NCBI GenBank assembly: GCA_016203175.1
Contig: JACQNH010000067.1
Coordinates: 1 to 39,320 of the forward strand
Reading direction: 5' to 3'
DNA: 39,320 nucleotides
From: Candidatus Woesearchaeota archaeon
GTDB taxonomy: Archaea > Nanobdellota > Nanobdellia > SCGC-AAA011-G17 > JACQNH01
Under the pieces are notes generated by a model. It saw only the letters and a program-made list of their open reading frames with translations. It was not told the DNA's origin and did no database searches. Made by a program: the position numbers and the translations under genes. Shown here in pieces: positions 3,876 to 29,009 of this stretch. How positions within the stretch are numbered: position 1 is the first letter of the stretch; the number at the start of each line of letters is the position of its first letter.

Positions 3876-5264
3876 ATGAGTATTAAACAACAAGTTAGAT
3901 TAATAAAAGAGGGGAAGATTTCTGTAGTAGATTATGTTAAAGATATTCTGAAACAATCTGCTAAAATAAATGATGAATTAAAATGTTTAAATTATTTTGC
4001 TAAAGAAGAATCTATAAAAAGAGCTGAAATTTTAGATAAAGAATTAAAACAGAAAACTAACGGAAAATTATTTGGAATTCCTATAACTGCAAAAGATGAT
4101 TTATGTGTTAAAGGTATGCCTACAACTTCCGGCTCTACAATTTTAAGAAATTATAAACCGCCGTATAATGCTACATGTATAGAGAAAGTTTTAATGGAAA
4201 AAGGGATCATTATAGGAAAAACTTGCCAGGATGAATTTGGTTTTGGAAGTTTTAACACAAATACAAGCTTAGATTTTGAAAGACCTTTAAATCCTTTTGA
4301 CAAAGAAAGAACTACTGGGGGAAGTTCTGGAGGAGCAGCTGCATTTGTTCAAAAAGCAAATTTTCCAACTGTTGCTTTAGCAGAATCTACTGGGGGCTCA
4401 ATTGTAAATCCTGCTTCTTTTTGTGGTGTTGTTGGATTATGTCCTACTTATGGTTTAGTTTCCAGATACGGTTTAATTGATTATGCAAATTCTTTAGATA
4501 AAATTGGGACAATAGGAAAAACTGTTGAAGATGCAGAATTGTTATTGGACATTATAAAAGGATTTGATCCTTTAGATCCAACTTCAATAAAACAAGAGAG
4601 TAAAAAAATAAATATAAAAGAGATAGCTATACAAAAAGAGGCATTAGATGTTGATAAAGAGGTAAAAGATTTATTTTTGGAAACTTTAAAAAAATTAAAA
4701 ATAAAATACAAAGAAGTTTCATTACCTTTAACTGCCAAATATGCGATTCCTGCTTATTATATTATTGCAATGTCAGAAGCTTCTACAAATTTAGCCAAAT
4801 ATTGCGGAATGAGATACGGTAAAGAGGAAGAGATTAAAGATGATTTCAATGAGTATTTTTCTAAAATAAGATCAAGTTATTTTGGGAGGGAAGCTAAGAG
4901 AAGAATTATTTTAGGAACATTTGCGAGAATGGCTGGCTATAGGGATGCATTTTATGTTAAAGCATTAAAGGCCAGGTCATTAATAATTCAGGAATATAAA
5001 AAAGTTTTAAAAGATTATCCTGTTATTGCAACTCCTACAATGCCTTTAATTGCACCTAAATTTAAGGATATTACGAAATTAACTCCTTTACAAAACTATA
5101 TGATGGACATTTTAACTGTTGGACCAAACTTAGCTGGATTGCCTCATTTAAGTGTTAATGCAGGATTTATTTCTAAGATGCCTTGTGGGATAATGTTTAC
5201 AGGGGATCATTTAGGTGAAAATACAATAATTGAAATAGGGAAGAAAGTTGAAAACATATCTTAA
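3876..5264 (+). CDS. gatA: Asp-tRNA(Asn)/Glu-tRNA(Gln) amidotransferase subunit A
   Basis: Amidase signature GGSSGGAAAFV..ALAESTGGSIVNPASFCGVVG..PTYGLVSRYGLI. Confidence 0.95.
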   Translation: MSIKQQVRLIKEGKISVVDYVKDILKQSAKINDELKCLNYFAKEESIKRAEILDKELKQKTNGKLFGIPITAKDDLCVKGMPTTSGSTILRNYKPPYNATCIEKVLMEKGIIIGKTCQDEFGFGSFNTNTSLDFERPLNPFDKERTTGGSSGGAAAFVQKANFPTVALAESTGGSIVNPASFCGVVGLCPTYGLVSRYGLIDYANSLDKIGTIGKTVEDAELLLDIIKGFDPLDPTSIKQESKKINIKEIAIQKEALDVDKEVKDLFLETLKKLKIKYKEVSLPLTAKYAIPAYYIIAMSEASTNLAKYCGMRYGKEEEIKDDFNEYFSKIRSSYFGREAKRRIILGTFARMAGYRDAFYVKALKARSLIIQEYKKVLKDYPVIATPTMPLIAPKFKDITKLTPLQNYMMDILTVGPNLAGLPHLSVNAGFISKMPCGIMFTGDHLGENTIIEIGKKVENIS

Positions 5265-5488
5265 CAATGCCTCATAAATTCTTCTCTGTTAATAATCAAA
5301 TCGTGCTTTATGATTTTATTTAGGAGACCACGATCAACTTCTTCTCCGCCATGATTCGGGATTACTGTTGTCCTCCCATCAGCATGTTCAAAAAACATAT
5401 GGCTGCCTTCTTGTCTCTTCATCTCAAAACCTAGCTTTTTTAGAACCTTAGCAACTTCCTTAGCAGTCATTAAAGGAAGTTTTGGCAT
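5261..5488 (-). CDS. hicA: HicA-type mRNA interferase toxin
   Basis: KEVAKVLKKLGFEMKRQEGSHMFFEHADGRTTVIPNHGGEEVDRGLLNKIIK. Confidence 0.9.
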   Translation of the reverse strand: MPKLPLMTAKEVAKVLKKLGFEMKRQEGSHMFFEHADGRTTVIPNHGGEEVDRGLLNKIIKHDLIINREEFMRHC

Positions 5489-5489
5489 A

Positions 5490-5747
5490 TTATACCTCTA
5501 TTTGCTGTAAACTAAGAAATTTAACTTTTTCTTCGATTGGCTTCTTAACCTTAAGGTATAGTGAAATGGCTTCTTTAGTTCTTTCCATTAACTCGTCATA
5601 AGTCTTTGCCTGAGTATGGCAACCTGGCAATTCAACTACCTCTGAAATAAGATACCCGTCTTCTCCTTGTTCTACTACAACATTAAATCGATTTCCCATG
5701 TAGTTTTGATTCTTGGTAGATTTATATAATTTTCGTTTTAAAATCAT
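5490..5747 (-). CDS. hicB: HicB-type antitoxin
   Basis: FNVVVEQGEDGYLISEVVELPGCHTQAKTYDELMERTKEAISLYL; upstream of hicA. Confidence 0.9.
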   Translation of the reverse strand: MILKRKLYKSTKNQNYMGNRFNVVVEQGEDGYLISEVVELPGCHTQAKTYDELMERTKEAISLYLKVKKPIEEKVKFLSLQQIEV

Positions 5748-5787
5748 TGAACTTGGAAAGAAAGTTGAAAATTTAAGTTCTATGTAA
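5746..5787 (+). repeat. Duplicated gatA 3' terminus
   Basis: ATTGAACTTGGAAAGAAAGTTGAAAATTTAAGTTCTATGTAA encodes IELGKKVENLSSM*; the gatA end at 5229-5264 encodes IEIGKKVENIS*. Confidence 0.7.
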
Positions 5788-6351
5788 AATGAAATAGATT
5801 ACAATAAGAATTATAATTATCAATAAAATTAAAGATGTTATGAAAATAAAGCTAGTGCTACCTTTTTTAGAAATACCCTTAGTAATATTTACTTCGGATA
5901 TAGATTCTACTTTTTCTTCTGAAGCTTTATGAAAACAATTTGATTTTAAACATATATCTTTAGTTTCAGTTTTGTTATCATTGCATTCTACATCATCGTT
6001 ACATTCTGGTAAAGGTAGACCATAACAGGCTAAATTTGAACACTCTTTACCACAGAAACAGTTTTCACAAGGCTCTGGTTGTATTCTTATTTTTAGGAAA
6101 CTAACTCCACTGTCGAAGACCTCTAAACTAACATTTTTAAAATCTATAATTCCTGGCCTAGAAAAGAATAGTATCTTTTTTTCTCCATTTATGCAAACTT
6201 CTGCTTGTTTTTCTGGGTAGTTTATACTTAAAAGAGATATATTTTTACCTTGAGAATAATAACTATCTCCTATTCTCATTGTAACTGCATTTACATTAGC
6301 TGCTAATAATAGTAACATTAAAGCTAATAAGTATAGTTTCATATTAACCAT
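5773..6351 (-). CDS. Secreted/membrane-anchored Cys-rich protein
   Basis: N-terminal signal-like segment, CENCFCGKECSNLACYG, C-terminal TM. Confidence 0.55.
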   Translation of the reverse strand: MVNMKLYLLALMLLLLAANVNAVTMRIGDSYYSQGKNISLLSINYPEKQAEVCINGEKKILFFSRPGIIDFKNVSLEVFDSGVSFLKIRIQPEPCENCFCGKECSNLACYGLPLPECNDDVECNDNKTETKDICLKSNCFHKASEEKVESISEVNITKGISKKGSTSFIFITSLILLIIIILIVIYFILHRT

Positions 6352-6434: not shown

Positions 6435-7793
6435 ATGACTGAGGTAAAAATAGGTTGCGAGTTTCATATTCAATTAAATACTAAAACGAAAATTTTCTGT
6501 TCTTGTTCTACTTCAAGTTCAGAAGAACCAAATACAAATACTTGTCCAACATGTTTGGGTTTACCTGGTTCAAAACCTGCATTTAATAAAGAAGCACTGA
6601 ATCAGGCTTTAAAGGTTGCATTAGCATTAAATTGTAAAATAAATAAAAGATCGTATTTTTCAAGAAAATCTTATTTTTATCCTGATCTTCCTAAAAATTA
6701 TCAGATTACACAATATGAAACACCAATAGCAACTGAAGGAAAATTAGAAGGGATTAGAATTAAAAGAATTCATTTAGAAGAGGATCCTGGAAAGTTGGTA
6801 CATCAAGGAGCAATAACTTTAGTTGATTACAATAGGTCTGGAATACCATTAATTGAGGTTGTTACTGAGCCTGATTTTAAATCTCCTAATGAAGTAAGAT
6901 TATTTTTAAGAAAACTAACAACAGTTTTAGAATATTTAAAAGTCTATCATAGAAAGTCTGAATTAAGTATAAGGACTGATGCAAATGTTTCTATTAATAA
7001 TGGAGAAAGGGTTGAAATAAAAAATATTACTGGTGTAAAACCTGTTGAAGATGCTTTAGAATATGAAATTAAAAGACAGGAGAAGGAGAAAAATATTGTA
7101 AGAGAAACTAGGGGTTATGATGCTGATAAAAATATTACTTATACTTTAAGAACAAAAGAAACTGAAGAAGATTATGGTTACATTTATGATCCTGATTTAC
7201 CTGAGATTTCTTTAACTGATGAAATGCTGAAAGAAAGTAAAGAAAGTTTACCTGAATTAGCTTCTGAAAGGGCAATAAGAATAATTAAGCAATATAAAAT
7301 TTCTAAAGAAGATGCTGAGGTTTTAACACAAGAATTAAAACTAGCAGAATTATTTGAGGCTGTTGCAAAAGATATTTCTCCAGGATTAGCTGCTAAATGG
7401 TTAAGAAGAGATTTGGCTAGAGTATTGCATTATAATAAAAAAGAGCTGCATGATGTTGAATTAGAGGAAAGTCATTTAAAAGAATTATTAAAATTAGTTG
7501 AGGAGAAAAAAATAACAGATCAAGTTGCTGGAAAGATTTTAGAGAAATTAATCGAGAAGCCTTTTTCACCTAAAGAATACGTTGAAAGGGAGAAATTAAT
7601 TAAAATAACTTCTACAGATGATTTAAGGAGGTTATGTTTAGAAGCTATTGCAGAAAATCTAAAAGCTGTTGAGGATTATAAAAAAGGAGAAGAAAAAGCT
7701 TTAGATTTTGTAGTTGGAAGTGTAATGAAAAAAACTAGAGGTAAAGCTGATCCTGTTTTGGTAAAAGAATTAATTAAAAAGGAGATTAGGTAA
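6435..7793 (+). CDS. gatB: Asp-tRNA(Asn)/Glu-tRNA(Gln) amidotransferase subunit B
   Basis: VKIGCEFHIQLNTKTKIFCSC..CPTCLGLPGSKPAFN..SYFYPDLPKNYQITQ; likely start MTEV at 6435 rather than 6402. Confidence 0.95.
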   Translation: MTEVKIGCEFHIQLNTKTKIFCSCSTSSSEEPNTNTCPTCLGLPGSKPAFNKEALNQALKVALALNCKINKRSYFSRKSYFYPDLPKNYQITQYETPIATEGKLEGIRIKRIHLEEDPGKLVHQGAITLVDYNRSGIPLIEVVTEPDFKSPNEVRLFLRKLTTVLEYLKVYHRKSELSIRTDANVSINNGERVEIKNITGVKPVEDALEYEIKRQEKEKNIVRETRGYDADKNITYTLRTKETEEDYGYIYDPDLPEISLTDEMLKESKESLPELASERAIRIIKQYKISKEDAEVLTQELKLAELFEAVAKDISPGLAAKWLRRDLARVLHYNKKELHDVELEESHLKELLKLVEEKKITDQVAGKILEKLIEKPFSPKEYVEREKLIKITSTDDLRRLCLEAIAENLKAVEDYKKGEEKALDFVVGSVMKKTRGKADPVLVKELIKKEIR

Positions 7794-8216
7794 ATGGGCT
7801 ACGAAGAAAGATTTAATCAACACATTGAAGAATGGATAAATCACTGTAATACGCCAAAAGTAAGATTAAGTGCTAAGTTTTTTTTAGAGGCGCTTGATTG
7901 TGAAGCCTATAAAAACATTGTTTCAATGGGTCCTTCTATACTCCCCTTTATAAGAAAGATGTATAATAGAAGCGCAGGAATACACGACTTACCCCCAGAT
8001 AAATTCCTAAAGACCATTGAAGAAATTGAACAGAAGGGTCTTAGTCTTAAATTGTCGGATTATGAATTATCTCTTGCCTTAGTTAAAGATTGTTTAACTA
8101 ATCTTGTTATTGAAATAGTAGGAGATAATTTTAAGGTGCCAGAAGATATTATATATGATCCGTACTTAAGAGGGGAGTATACAAAGAGATGGTTAGAAGA
8201 AAACACGACTGGATAA
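7794..8216 (+). CDS. Hypothetical protein
   Basis: 140-aa ORF abutting gatB. Confidence 0.55.
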   Translation: MGYEERFNQHIEEWINHCNTPKVRLSAKFFLEALDCEAYKNIVSMGPSILPFIRKMYNRSAGIHDLPPDKFLKTIEEIEQKGLSLKLSDYELSLALVKDCLTNLVIEIVGDNFKVPEDIIYDPYLRGEYTKRWLEENTTG

Positions 8217-8298
8217 ATAAAGAATAGAAAAACAAACTATAAATTATTTGAAATTTAATAACCAAAAGCTATTTAAAATAATAAACTTAGTCTGTAGA

Positions 8299-24806: not shown

Positions 24807-24838
24807 GTTTTAAATATTAATATAAATACCAAATTAGC

Positions 24839-25039
24839 ATGGAAAAAGAGGATATAGAACTGTTAACAAAAGTCACTACTTCATATGCAACAGTCATTGG
24901 TGTTGGTGGTGCAACTCTTTACTACCTCAGCCAAATAAGAGAAATCAAAGGATTATCACTACTTTTTATAATTATCGTTTACATCACAGGCTTATACTTC
25001 GCAATAGTAGGAATAAGGAGGTCAAAATTTCAATGGTAG
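24839..25039 (+). CDS. Small 2-TM membrane protein
   Basis: 66-aa ORF with two hydrophobic segments. Confidence 0.5.
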   Translation: MEKEDIELLTKVTTSYATVIGVGGATLYYLSQIREIKGLSLLFIIIVYITGLYFAIVGIRRSKFQW

Positions 25040-25144
25040 AATCTAAAATTAAAAAAGAAGATTGGGTAGGTTGGTTATATCTCATTATAAGTTTATTATT
25101 AATACTGCTTTTTTTCTATTTAGTTTTTATAAAGCAGTTTTAAA
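25034..25144 (+). CDS. 36-aa membrane microprotein
   Basis: MVESKIKKEDWVGWLYLIISLLLILLFFYLVFIKQF*; overlaps preceding ORF. Confidence 0.45.
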
Positions 25145-25164
25145 ATACTATAAAATGAGGTTAA

Positions 25165-25229
25165 ATGATAAACTTAGATAACTTTTTCAAACCAAAAAGT
25201 ATTGCAATTATTGGTGCTTCAAGAAAAAA
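25165..25229 (+). repeat. Duplicated 5' end of the ACD alpha gene (copy 1)
   Basis: 65 bp, one mismatch to 26328-26392; encodes MINLDNFFKPKSIAIIGASRK in both. Confidence 0.95.
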
Positions 25230-25284
25230 CCAACAACAAACCGAAAGCTTTTTAAATGTGTATTTATCCACACAGTTGAGTAAA

Positions 25285-25863
25285 ATGCTACACAACTATT
25301 GTAAATTATTAAATGAATACCTTGGGGATTATACTAAGAAGGTTCATGGTAGGGGTTTGGTTGGAAAAGTCCCGCTTAGTCAGAAATCTATAGCCGTATC
25401 ACTTAAAGAACTAGAAAAGAAAGGATTATTAAAATCAGATAAAAAAGGGAACATAAAGTTTTTCGGTCTTAATTTACTTAATCCAGAAATAAAAGATGTT
25501 TTAACAATAACTGAAATAGATAGAAAAATTGAATTTTTAAGAAAACATAGAAAAATTGCAAACATATTCAATAAGGACCATAGAGTAATAGGTGTATTTG
25601 GAAGCTATGCAAAAGACACACAAACTAAAGATTCGGACATAGACTTGTTCATAATAGGTAAAAAGATTAAGGGAGATTACGATAAAAAAGGGAAAATATT
25701 TGACCTGAAGATAAGCATAAAATATTTTACTGAAACCATTTTCAGGAAATTGGCAAAAGACAAAGATCCACTTATAAAAGAAATAATAGAAAAACATGTT
25801 TTAATATTTGGGATAGAACGGTTCATTTCTATAATATGGGAGGATTATTATGGTTTCAATTAA
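25285..25863 (+). CDS. MNT nucleotidyltransferase with N-terminal wHTH (antitoxin candidate)
   Basis: HTH-like SQKSIAVSLKELEKKGLLKSD, NTase VIGVFGSYAKDTQTKDSDIDLFII. ORF runs in frame from 25165; own TATA (25249-25256) and palindrome (25257-25274) favour start M41 at 25285. Confidence 0.8.
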   Translation: MLHNYCKLLNEYLGDYTKKVHGRGLVGKVPLSQKSIAVSLKELEKKGLLKSDKKGNIKFFGLNLLNPEIKDVLTITEIDRKIEFLRKHRKIANIFNKDHRVIGVFGSYAKDTQTKDSDIDLFIIGKKIKGDYDKKGKIFDLKISIKYFTETIFRKLAKDKDPLIKEIIEKHVLIFGIERFISIIWEDYYGFN

Positions 25864-26326
25864 ATGGTGCCTAAAACAAAAATTAGGTATTAGAATTTTA
25901 GAACCTAACACGAATATATGTAATTCGTATTTGATGATGGCTGAGGAATCAATAGAAGAATTAGAAAGGATAAAAACAAAGATTTGGATAGCAACTGCTT
26001 CATATTATACTTTTTATTATTCTTTATACGCTCTAATTATAAGGTTAGGAATTAAATGTGAAATACATTCCTGTTCTTTAGAATTTATGAAAGAATATTT
26101 AAAAGAGTTTTATGATGAAATTGATATTGAACTTATTAATAAAGCATTTTTTGCAAGAAATGACCTACAATACTATACAAATCGACCTGTAGAAGAGAAT
26201 ATCATAAATGAAATTAAAATCGGTTGCAAAGATTTTTACATAAAAACAAAAGATATTATAATTAAATTAACCGAAGAGCAAATAAACAATATTAGAGACA
26301 GAATACAATGTTTAAAAGAGGATTAA
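25850..26326 (+). CDS. HEPN-domain protein (toxin candidate)
   Basis: Helical AEESIEELERIKTKIWIATASYYTFYYSLYALIIRLGIK; paired and overlapping with MNT. Confidence 0.7.
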   Translation: MVSIKWCLKQKLGIRILEPNTNICNSYLMMAEESIEELERIKTKIWIATASYYTFYYSLYALIIRLGIKCEIHSCSLEFMKEYLKEFYDEIDIELINKAFFARNDLQYYTNRPVEENIINEIKIGCKDFYIKTKDIIIKLTEEQINNIRDRIQCLKED

Positions 26327-26327
26327 A

Positions 26328-27689
26328 ATGATAAACTTAGATAACTTTTTCAAACCAAAAAGCATTGCAATTATTGGTGCTTCAAGAAAAAAAGGTAAAG
26401 TTGGCAATGTTTTAGTAGAAAATTTATTACATTCCAAATTTAAAGGAAAAATTTATCCGGTAAATCCAAAAGCAAATAAAATACTAAACCTAAAATGCTA
26501 CAAATCAGTTCTAAATATAAAAGAAAAAATAGACTTAGCGGTACTAGCAATTCCAGCAGAAATTATTTTAAAAAGCATCAAAGAATGCAACAAAAAAGAA
26601 GTTAAAGATATTTTAATTATAACAGCAGGTTTCTCAGAAATAGGAAATACAAAATTAGAAAATGAATTAAAACAGTACATTGAAAAAAATCAGATCAGGA
26701 TGATAGGTCCAAATGTTTTAGGAATTCTAGATTTTCATACAAAATTAGACACAATATTCTTACCAAGAACAAGATTAAAAAGACCAGAAGCAGGTTGCAT
26801 AAGTTTCGTTACTCAATCAGGCGCAGCAGGTTCAGCAGTTTTAGACCTAGCAACATTTGAAGGACATAAATTTGCAAAATTCATAAGCTACGGCAATGCA
26901 ACTACAATAGATGAAACAGATATTATAGAATATTTAGGTAATGACAAAGATACTAAAGTTATCTGTTTATACATAGAGGGTATTAAAGATGGAAGAAAAT
27001 TCATGAAAGTTTTAAAAGATGTTACAAAGAAAAAGCCAGTGATAGCAATTAAAGGTGGTATTTCAGAACAAGGTTCTAAAGCAACATTGTCTCACACTGG
27101 TTCTCTAGCAGGGGACTATAAAGTTTATTCAGGGGTATTTAAACAATTAAATATAATCCAAGCTGAAAACCTGGAAGACATGTTAGATTATGCTTATATC
27201 TTTGAAAGCATGCTTAAACCAAAAGGAAATAGAGTACAAATAATTACAAATGGTGGCGGTTACGGAATATTAACAGTAGATGCAATTTCAAAAACTAAAA
27301 ATCTGCAGTTAGCTCAATTAACAGAAAAAACTAAAAATTATTTAAAAAAACAATTCCCAAAAACAGTTACAGTAAATAACCCAATAGATTTAGTTGGAGA
27401 TGCAGACAATAAAAGATATGAGCTAGCAATTAATGCCTGTTTACAGGATAATAATGTAGATCTAATCTTACTAATAGTTTTATATCAAACACCATTATTA
27501 ACATTTGAAATTACAGATTTATTAGCAAAAGAAATCCATAAATCAAAAAAACCAATAGTTATAGTCAGTACAGGTGGAGAGATAATAAACAAATTCAAGA
27601 AAGTTTTAGAAGAAAAAGGCATTGTTACATATACCTTCCCGCATGAAGCTGTAAAAGCTTTGAGCGCACTAGTTGAATACTATTTTTAA
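26328..27689 (+). CDS. acdA: Acyl-/acetyl-CoA synthetase (ADP-forming) alpha subunit
   Basis: FKPKSIAIIGASRKKGKVGNVL..GPNVLGILD..SFVTQSGAAGSAVLD..GGISEQGSKATLSHTGSLAGDYKVY. Confidence 0.92.
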   Translation: MINLDNFFKPKSIAIIGASRKKGKVGNVLVENLLHSKFKGKIYPVNPKANKILNLKCYKSVLNIKEKIDLAVLAIPAEIILKSIKECNKKEVKDILIITAGFSEIGNTKLENELKQYIEKNQIRMIGPNVLGILDFHTKLDTIFLPRTRLKRPEAGCISFVTQSGAAGSAVLDLATFEGHKFAKFISYGNATTIDETDIIEYLGNDKDTKVICLYIEGIKDGRKFMKVLKDVTKKKPVIAIKGGISEQGSKATLSHTGSLAGDYKVYSGVFKQLNIIQAENLEDMLDYAYIFESMLKPKGNRVQIITNGGGYGILTVDAISKTKNLQLAQLTEKTKNYLKKQFPKTVTVNNPIDLVGDADNKRYELAINACLQDNNVDLILLIVLYQTPLLTFEITDLLAKEIHKSKKPIVIVSTGGEIINKFKKVLEEKGIVTYTFPHEAVKALSALVEYYF

Positions 27690-28366
27690 TCTATTAAATA
27701 TTTTAGATTTTTAAGTTTATTAATATCAATATCATATTTCTTCTCCAGAAACACCCCTTTAAATGAATTTATAAATTTTTTTCTATCCAATAGGCTAATT
27801 AAATTTTTTATATTTGATGCAACAATGTTTTTGTCACAATCCTTTAAAAATAATTTTATTTTACTAATGTCTGTATCTTTAATTAACGATGCAATATCTC
27901 TAAAGTCAGTCAACCTCCCAGCCTGTAATTTCAAAGCAATTAATAATTCTTTAACAGGTATTTTTGCTATAATCTCTCTTTCCAGTCCTTTGATTTTATT
28001 TTTTACAGAATTTTCATTTATCTTTTCAAAGCTAATAGATGAATTAGTCTGTCTTATACCCATCCCTCCAACAAGCAAGTCAATATTAATAGACAAATCA
28101 TTTTTCTTTTCATACCTGATGAATACTGTTGAATACAAATTCTCAAGTTCCTTCGAGATGGTTTTCTTAAAGCCGTTTTGAGACAATAAATTTTCAAACT
28201 TTTGAACATCACCAGATCTTACTACAACATCAGCATCGACAGAAAATCTATGCTTAAAGGCAGAAACAGCATATCCACCAACCAAAACAAAGTCAAGATT
28301 ACCATCAATAAAATTCTGCAAAATTTCAAATATGTCATTTTCCCTTTTAATAAATTTTTCAAACAT
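27686..28366 (-). CDS. AbiEii-like nucleotidyltransferase toxin
   Basis: DFVLVGGYAVSAFKHRFSVDADVVV; KLQAGRLTDFRDIASLI. Confidence 0.8.
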   Translation of the reverse strand: MFEKFIKRENDIFEILQNFIDGNLDFVLVGGYAVSAFKHRFSVDADVVVRSGDVQKFENLLSQNGFKKTISKELENLYSTVFIRYEKKNDLSINIDLLVGGMGIRQTNSSISFEKINENSVKNKIKGLEREIIAKIPVKELLIALKLQAGRLTDFRDIASLIKDTDISKIKLFLKDCDKNIVASNIKNLISLLDRKKFINSFKGVFLEKKYDIDINKLKNLKYLID

Positions 28367-29009
28367 AATTAACCTCCTTGTATTTTACTTTAAAATTTTT
28401 ATTATACATTTCCTCAACCATTTCTAAAGCAGGTTGAAAATTATAGACATATTTCTTCATGAATACTATTGTATCTTCGAAGCTATCAACAGGAATATCA
28501 TCCAAAAAAGAAACTTTAAAATCATCTAATATCTCAATATTATAAAATACCCATTTCTTTTTATTTATTTTTAAGCCCAATTTCTTACAATACTCCAAGA
28601 AAATATTACAATCATTTTTTTTTATTTTTATAAAGATAGGATAGTAATCTTTTGACCTTGCAATATTGTATCCACCTTTTGTCCAAACATATACTGCATC
28701 AGTTTTTGTAAAACAATATTTTATCCCAAACAAACCTAAAACTGCATAATTAAAGCCTATATCATGATTAAAATTTGATTTTATATAATTCAAAGTATTC
28801 CTATAAAATTTATTATTTTCTTTTAAATATAATTTTAATCCAACCTGTTTAAAACAATCTAATTTAATCAATTCCTTAACCCACTTATAAGTCCAACCGT
28901 AGCTCAAATTAATCCTTTTAGATATCGCATTAATAGAATCTACCTTTCTTGCGGCTATAATTATTTTCATTACATGCTCATTTAATACATCTATTTCCAT
29001 AGCTATCAT
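28359..29009 (-). CDS. AbiEi-like wHTH antitoxin/regulator
   Basis: N-terminal HTH SINAISKRINLSYGWTYKWVKELIKL; overlaps the AbiEii-like gene; start probably MEIDV at 29000. Confidence 0.65.
   Translation of the reverse strand: MIAMEIDVLNEHVMKIIIAARKVDSINAISKRINLSYGWTYKWVKELIKLDCFKQVGLKLYLKENNKFYRNTLNYIKSNFNHDIGFNYAVLGLFGIKYCFTKTDAVYVWTKGGYNIARSKDYYPIFIKIKKNDCNIFLEYCKKLGLKINKKKWVFYNIEILDDFKVSFLDDIPVDSFEDTIVFMKKYVYNFQPALEMVEEMYNKNFKVKYKEVNYV

Follow-up and report, generated by a model that had tools for sequence, protein, structure and literature searches.

A hicBA toxin–antitoxin pair between two copies of the gatA 3′ end, and similar repeat-bracketed modules in related archaea

Results

A second gatA 3′ end lies beyond hicBA

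The window, which is the whole 39,320-nucleotide stretch of DNA analysed here (contig JACQNH010000067.1 from a Candidatus Woesearchaeota genome of 92 contigs, 83% complete and with 5% contamination), carries gatA, an essential gene, followed by hicA and hicB, which are convergent to it (Table 1). The gatA reading frame terminates in TIIEIGKKVENIS and a stop codon. A direct-repeat search identified a 33-nt segment of the gatA end that recurs at a spacing of 517, with 28/33 positions identical (85%). The second, or orphan, copy belongs to a tail that spans ~5739 to a stop codon at 5787; its frame ends in KIIELGKKVENLSSM, and the tail extends into the end of the 5773-6351 gene. The second gatA C-terminus that had been described on the far side of hicBA is thus present. 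The final 60 nt of gatA matched positions 5489-5900 with a score of 20.5, which was equalled by 0 of 5000 dinucleotide shuffles (shuffle maximum, 17), and elsewhere in the window the gatA tail scored at most 15.5. The shuffled-sequence comparison that had been proposed for the orphan match therefore argues that it is not due to chance. A second GatA C-terminal fragment, 64% identical, was noted in the window's own genome bin (G000:C30 9270-9713) and is possibly a contaminant.

The repeat copies enclose hicA and hicB and no other genes. HicB matches PF15919 at E 1.5e-5 and 25.6 bits, slightly under the curated cut-off of 27 bits, and the hicA-hicB pairing is conserved across 63 loci. Judged by sequence, a HicA-family toxin gene and an adjacent HicB-family gene appear to make up one operon. 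The original prediction had the ~480 bp between the copies consisting of exactly hicA and hicB; these are indeed the sole genes, and the interval of 484 bp includes the core promoter as well. Two further details of that prediction do not hold. The orphan copy does not begin at the hicB start codon, since position 5747 is merely the first ATG of the open reading frame and homology starts with MGNRF at 5699, where, by alignment with the HicB proteins of relatives, hicB probably starts. Nor does the orphan tail supply the hicB promoter: the TATA-like box (TTTATATAATTTT, 5721-5733) is sited between hicB and the orphan, outside the orphan and within the cassette itself, and boxes like it occur at the equivalent place in other cassettes (L036, L108, L096), which excludes the orphan tail from this role.

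Table 1. Features of the gatA and acdA loci (positions in the window).
Feature	Position	Strand	Evidence
gatA (amidase, PF01425), target gene; 3′ end is copy 1	3876..5264	+	PF01425 E 6.7e-101
Direct repeat, body-linked copy: final gatA codons TIIEIGKKVEN, then IS and stop	5222..5254	+	repeat search
Inserted cassette, 484 bp: core promoter, hicB and hicA	5255..5738	-	missing from same-genus G001
hicA toxin gene, stop codon overlapping the gatA stop	5261..5488	-	PF07927 E 4.6e-20; resembles PDB 1whz
hicB antitoxin gene, probable ATG 5699-5697	5490..5699	-	homologues align from MGNRF; PF15919-like
TATA-box-like element of hicBA, ~25-30 bp upstream of hicB, within the cassette	5721..5733	-	sequence
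Direct repeat, orphan copy: native gatA 3′ end	5739..5771	+	flank continuous with G001 homology
Orphan frame, IELGKKVENLSSM and stop	5746..5787	+	sequence
gatA neighbour in the uninserted arrangement	5773..6351	-	homologue directly after gatA in G001
Orphan copy, 67 bp of the acdA 5′ end (66/67 identical)	25163..25229	+	repeat scan
MNT nucleotidyltransferase gene with wHTH	25165..25863	+	PF18765 E 3.8e-10, PF01909 E 4.2e-9
HEPN-like partner of MNT	25850..26326	+	resembles G032 HEPN protein, E 1e-7
Direct repeat, body-linked copy at the acdA start	26326..26392	+	repeat scan
acdA-like CoA ligase gene, second target gene	26328..27689	+	directly after E2 gene in G001

A sister genome has an empty gatA site

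The sole same-genus genome compared, G001 (contig JAHFIJ010000014.1, Ca. Woesearchaeota nzgw36; loci L003/L062), carries a gatA with 80% DNA identity to that of the window, and no hicB homologue was found in it. This gatA terminates in IEMGKKVEELS (VIEMGKKVEELS and stop) and the homologue of the 5773-6351 gene follows directly, which is the hicBA-free arrangement that had been predicted for a relative. Window positions 5746-5850 align to the native gatA end and flank of G001. This alignment identifies the orphan as the native gatA end and hicBA as the insert, which leaves the body-linked end as the product of duplication or replacement. Of the original att-like reading, insertion at the gatA 3′ end, regeneration of that end and the lack of a recombinase on board stand, with the orphan as the native end; an att mechanism is no more than a possibility. 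Between gatB and a TldD-like gene, G001 also lacks ~500 bp of the window (7789-8293), which contain a 140-aa ORF without a known family; no bracketing repeat was detected around them.

An MNT-HEPN pair is bracketed by copies of the acdA 5′ end

When the window was scanned for direct repeats at 0.2-3 kb spacing with a score of at least 18, three were recovered: the gatA pair, a repeat within a single ORF, and a 67-bp repeat that corresponds to codons 1-21 of an acdA-like CoA ligase gene. The MNT protein encoded between the acdA copies matches PADLOC PDC-M05A (E 5.9e-15) and MntA (E 1.5e-6); its own start is probably at 25285, with the ORF reading through the orphan copy. Its neighbour gave no Pfam match. 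An MNT gene with an adjacent HEPN gene is present at 25165-26326, the HEPN assignment being drawn solely from a similarity at E 1e-7. The MNT-HEPN module is missing from G001, where acdA and the stop codon of the E2 gene upstream overlap, so that this site too is empty there. Between its E2 gene and the acdA orphan copy, the window has a further 356 bp (24807-25162) that include a membrane-like ORF of 66 aa; their absence from G001 indicates that the acdA site has been altered more than once. In convergent orientation to acdA, positions 27686-29009 encode an AbiEii-like nucleotidyltransferase (weak PF08843 match) together with a wHTH-like protein. G001 lacks both this stretch and guaA at the corresponding site, and no repeats bracket the stretch.

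Bracketing repeats recur at TA loci in related archaea

Usable hicBA loci from the same class (63, mostly from MAGs) were surveyed by comparing the 200 bp left of each pair with the 200 bp right of it. The cut-off score of 18 was set after the first matches had been seen, and the controls, mispaired flanks and 747 same-spacing placements inside the same loci, used the identical cut-off. Tight bracketing direct repeats were found at 13/63 hicBA loci, compared with 0.12 expected from mispaired flanks and with 1/747 control placements (Fisher p 1.5e-14). The lone control exceedance (L127) brackets an MNT-HEPN pair. Two of the 13 brackets are doubtful, L034 with its two similar TA promoters and L055 with a REP-like palindrome; the 11 that are left show that the gatA bracket is not an isolated case. 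RelE/ParE loci (PF05016) were bracketed in 6/29 cases versus 0.22 expected, and housekeeping loci in 0/35 (apt, 0/19; an alkylation-repair gene, 0/16). A third empty site was found in G211, where tatD directly precedes the gene that is sited beyond hicBA in G305, a member of the same genus; in G305, hicBA is accompanied by a 33/33 duplicate of the tatD tail.

Some longer brackets contain two or three TA pairs (L056, L098). At L098 (437-2876), a 233-bp repeat surrounds three tandem pairs, two of them hicBA and one AbrB-like plus RelE-like. Loci L046 and L119 (G038:C1 and G073:C71), from bins of different families, share a hicBA stretch that is 99.5% identical over 1.2 kb, which probably represents cross-bin contamination.

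The TA sample comprised the two surveyed families and two complete genomes, G032 and G007. G032 (same order; 829,411 bp, rebuilt from pieces) has 37 repeats scoring at least 20 at 0.2-2 kb spacing versus 1 at 20 kb. After removal of within-ORF repeats and paralogues, the majority of its brackets contain TA or TA-like genes, with RelBE (twice), MNT and/or HEPN (four times), Fic (twice), and DUF5678 with an aspartyl protease as cargo; the bracket at 825825 is an interspersed repeat. Twenty random small proteins from G032 served as a control: none was recognised as TA by eye, and the ten that were searched against Pfam gave no TA match. Among G032 repeats at 2-15 kb spacing, no larger element with extra cargo was recognised. 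G007 has a single bracket with a TA-like pair, which indicates that abundance varies among genomes. In both genomes, tRNA-like segments are duplicated ~0.5-0.8 kb apart (G032:C1 499702-499733; G007:C1 134617-134650), and one of these pairs has a LAGLIDADG-like ORF between the copies.

One G032 site, at a VanZ-like gene (G032:C1 386493-389140; L237-L238), holds three copies of the gene 3′ end and two tandem TA-like cassettes, HEPN plus wHTH-MNT and then a 213-aa ORF without a Pfam family. The stretch common to copies 1 and 3 is 127 bp long, that common to copies 1 and 2 just 95 bp. Between the two orphan copies 1/97 positions differ, against 7/95 between the body-linked copy and the second, and all seven lie in the right half.

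Repeats derive from the target and differ at every locus

The sequence of each bracketing repeat is its own and derives from the target. Targets at the 3′ end are gatA, lpdA, tatD, apt, RNase Z, and DHFR-like, HAD-like and VanZ-like genes; at the 5′ end, they are acdA and a pilin-like gene, and the other repeats are intergenic DNA. Repeat lengths range from 18 to ~130 bp and so differ from the fixed-length target duplication of DDE transposons. As in tyrosine-integrase elements, hicBA entered at the 3′ end of a gene, gatA, and the direct repeats leave that gene restored; no shared att sequence was found among related elements. The gatA cassette itself contains no transposase or integrase gene. 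All ten genomes tested encode tyrosine recombinases, with 5 matches in the window's genome.

Cassettes occur in both orientations relative to the target. The spacing of hicBA brackets clusters at 457-564 bp, with few longer, and cassettes cease to be homologous near the TATA box at one end and near the hicA stop at the other. When cassettes were read by eye, neither a terminal motif or terminal inverted repeats at their ends nor a site shared among them, as in integron attC, was visible. A pair of near-identical cassette copies at two sites, from which the ends of the mobile unit could be defined, was not found.

The youngest repeats are identical (33/33, 27/27, 19/19) or almost so (66/67). 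After the repeat, body-linked tails are short everywhere, ending within 0-5 codons like true gene ends. A comparison of C-termini showed that the apt orphan (L106) has lost a Gly that nearly all relatives conserve, and the G007 orphan copy contains a stop codon. Counted manually over the pooled gene-end cases, codon differences between copies were synonymous in 18 cases and non-synonymous in 20. As a test of coding constraint on the two copies, the outcome was mixed and decides between neither of the insertion models discussed below.

HicBA appears to move between lineages

HicB copies from other families and orders share 78-83% identity with that of the window's genome; GatA, by contrast, is just ~50-60% identical across most of the order. 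In a tree of the 63 HicB+HicA sequences, orders are intermingled, and the topology requires at least 6 well-supported changes between the window's own order and others. The virus and plasmid collections that were searched for a vehicle yielded only weak matches: a partial one to one viral contig, and others to one archaeal virus and two cyanobacterial plasmids.

Discussion

The explanation that we favour, and consider likely, is that hicBA is a minimal mobile TA cassette (core promoter, hicB and hicA; ~484 bp) which was inserted in the last gatA codons with duplication of the target, may have been joined by staggered-break capture or template switching in preference to a transposase, and would have been retained by addiction. 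Insertion would have duplicated ~33 bp of the gatA target, leaving the gatA body with a working 3′ end (VENIS and stop) and stranding the native end (VENLSSM and stop) behind hicB. As the cassette has no recombinase, joining was presumably carried out by host or other functions: a short DNA may have been captured at a staggered break whose overhangs of 20-130 nt were filled in, or the replication template may have been switched. Duplications of variable length, element ends that are neither shared nor inverted, and insertion in both orientations fit break capture or template switching better than a dedicated transposase. The pair would then persist through addiction, its loss being toxic. This may also account for the dominance of TA operons among such insertions, since an insert bracketed by direct repeats is easily deleted but deletion of a TA pair would be punished by the toxin, and insertions near gene ends would survive because the duplication spares the gene. 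The identical young repeats, the Gly lost from the apt orphan and the stop codon in the G007 orphan favour plain target duplication followed by decay.

Three observations count against this explanation, namely the divergence pattern at the VanZ site, the short body-linked tails, and the single TA-like bracket in G007. The VanZ pattern would be easier to explain if the body-linked end came along with the cassette, as expected from homology-driven (Campbell-like) or att-like entry of a small circle or fragment that carried hicBA and the gatA 3′ end of another strain. The body-linked tail would then be donor-derived and the orphan native, with any recombinase acting in trans. We regard this as the less probable course of events, and on balance unlikely, although a diverged body-linked copy alongside near-identical orphans, with a second cassette accreted there, speaks for it at the VanZ site. 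It is also in keeping with body-linked tails that finish as true gene ends do, with gatA tails (NIS and stop, NLSSM and stop) that both resemble gatA ends, and with a ratio of codon differences that is more synonymous than unconstrained drift of both copies would give; the tyrosine recombinases in all ten genomes, the window's included, make help in trans possible. Against these points, a different repeat at each locus would call for many specific integrases or for the capture of a gene end each time, and repeats that differ in sequence and length and lack shared ends argue against one att-recognising integrase. The apt and G007 orphans look like decaying target duplications, and a donor arrangement, another gatA with adjacent hicBA, was absent among ~50 gatA loci.

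The cassettes could instead be what remains of a provirus or plasmid that integrated at a gene end and lost its interior, the addictive TA pair alone surviving. Integration is classically seen at gene ends and tRNA parts (G032 499702, G007 134617), TA genes resist deletion, and brackets with several TA pairs exist (L056, L098), but cassettes with identical and hence young repeats are already minimal (L090, L036, L096), few brackets are longer than the 457-564 bp cluster, and close HicB homologues are almost absent from the virus and plasmid collections searched; we find such an origin improbable. That the gatA repeat is a chance match, an interspersed repeat or an assembly artefact is scarcely credible. 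A few brackets elsewhere are indeed interspersed repeats (the REP-like L055, G032 825825) or similar TA promoters (L034), but the shuffling result and the empty site in the sister genome speak against this at gatA, and the repeats are diverged, variable in length and found in single-contig genomes too.

The same signature marks other hicBA pairs, RelE/ParE loci and MNT-HEPN modules at differing targets, and its occurrence at many TA pairs in related archaea suggests that selfish pairs spread as bare, recombinase-free cassettes. More tentatively, and with somewhat less than even confidence, TA operons of unrelated families (HicBA, RelE/ParE, MNT-HEPN, Fic) in these DPANN archaea may form a general class of minimal cassettes that share one in-trans process, long and variable target duplications, tandem accumulation and fixation by addiction, with neither a mobility gene nor defined termini.

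That TA systems are mobile is old knowledge; the loci described here bear on how a bare, recombinase-free TA operon of 500 bp enters a chromosome. They offer a readable footprint across many genera, in which the site can be seen empty, the target duplicated and the borders of the cassette defined, which permits comparative study of the insertion process and accounts for TA pairs that sit at gene ends and pile up. They show a route by which compact defence or addiction systems can spread through reduced archaeal genomes. Annotators should be aware that a gene end next to a TA pair may have been replaced recently or may be an orphan copy.

A full-text literature search, with subscription papers outside its reach, returned no description of target-duplicating TA insertions in DPANN. 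Work by Ramisetty and Santhosh from 2016 reportedly treats E. coli chromosomal TA pairs as the smallest horizontally moving operons and may report something close; as here, though in different organisms, a bare TA operon is reported to lie between host genes or at their edge and to alter the flanking coding ends.

TA pairs, HicAB included, have been described as mobile two-gene modules that are patchily distributed and spread horizontally (Makarova et al. 2009, PMC2701414). The present pair resembles type II HicAB systems (PF07927/PF15919) in its two small adjacent genes, HicA family match and patchy spread, whereas a bracketing target duplication like that of the present loci is unmentioned in that study. 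The same work traced a recent HEPN-MNT insertion or deletion in Deinococcus, also without mention of direct repeats (PMC2701414). In Microcystis, a ParE/ParD-like module is fenced by identical 152-bp direct repeats (PMC7935541). This too is a TA pair between direct repeats by a gene 3′ end, but those repeats contain inverted repeats, lie 147 and 120 bp from the genes, and are not described as target-derived gene ends (PMC7935541). The vapBC pairs of Sulfolobus islandicus are likewise mobile archaeal TA pairs; their mobility was ascribed to flanking degenerate IS copies (PMC3718332), whereas the present brackets have no IS or transposase. Tyrosine-integrase elements at gene 3′ ends duplicate and regenerate the gene end with repeats of tens of bp, as seen here, but the present cassettes are ~0.5-1.3 kb long, have no integrase and carry a different repeat at each locus.

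DPANN archaea are enriched in AbiE, SoFic and PDC systems, PDC-M05 being a nucleotidyltransferase with HEPN (PMC12988326), and both Fic and MNT-HEPN occur among the bracketed cargoes of the present survey. The acdA module is related to type VII HEPN-MNT/MntA toxin–antitoxin systems and to the candidate defence system PDC-M05 through its MNT, which matches PDC-M05A and MntA, and its HEPN-like partner. PDC-M05 and HEPN-MNT were previously known as gene content only, and the insertion signature at acdA is new.
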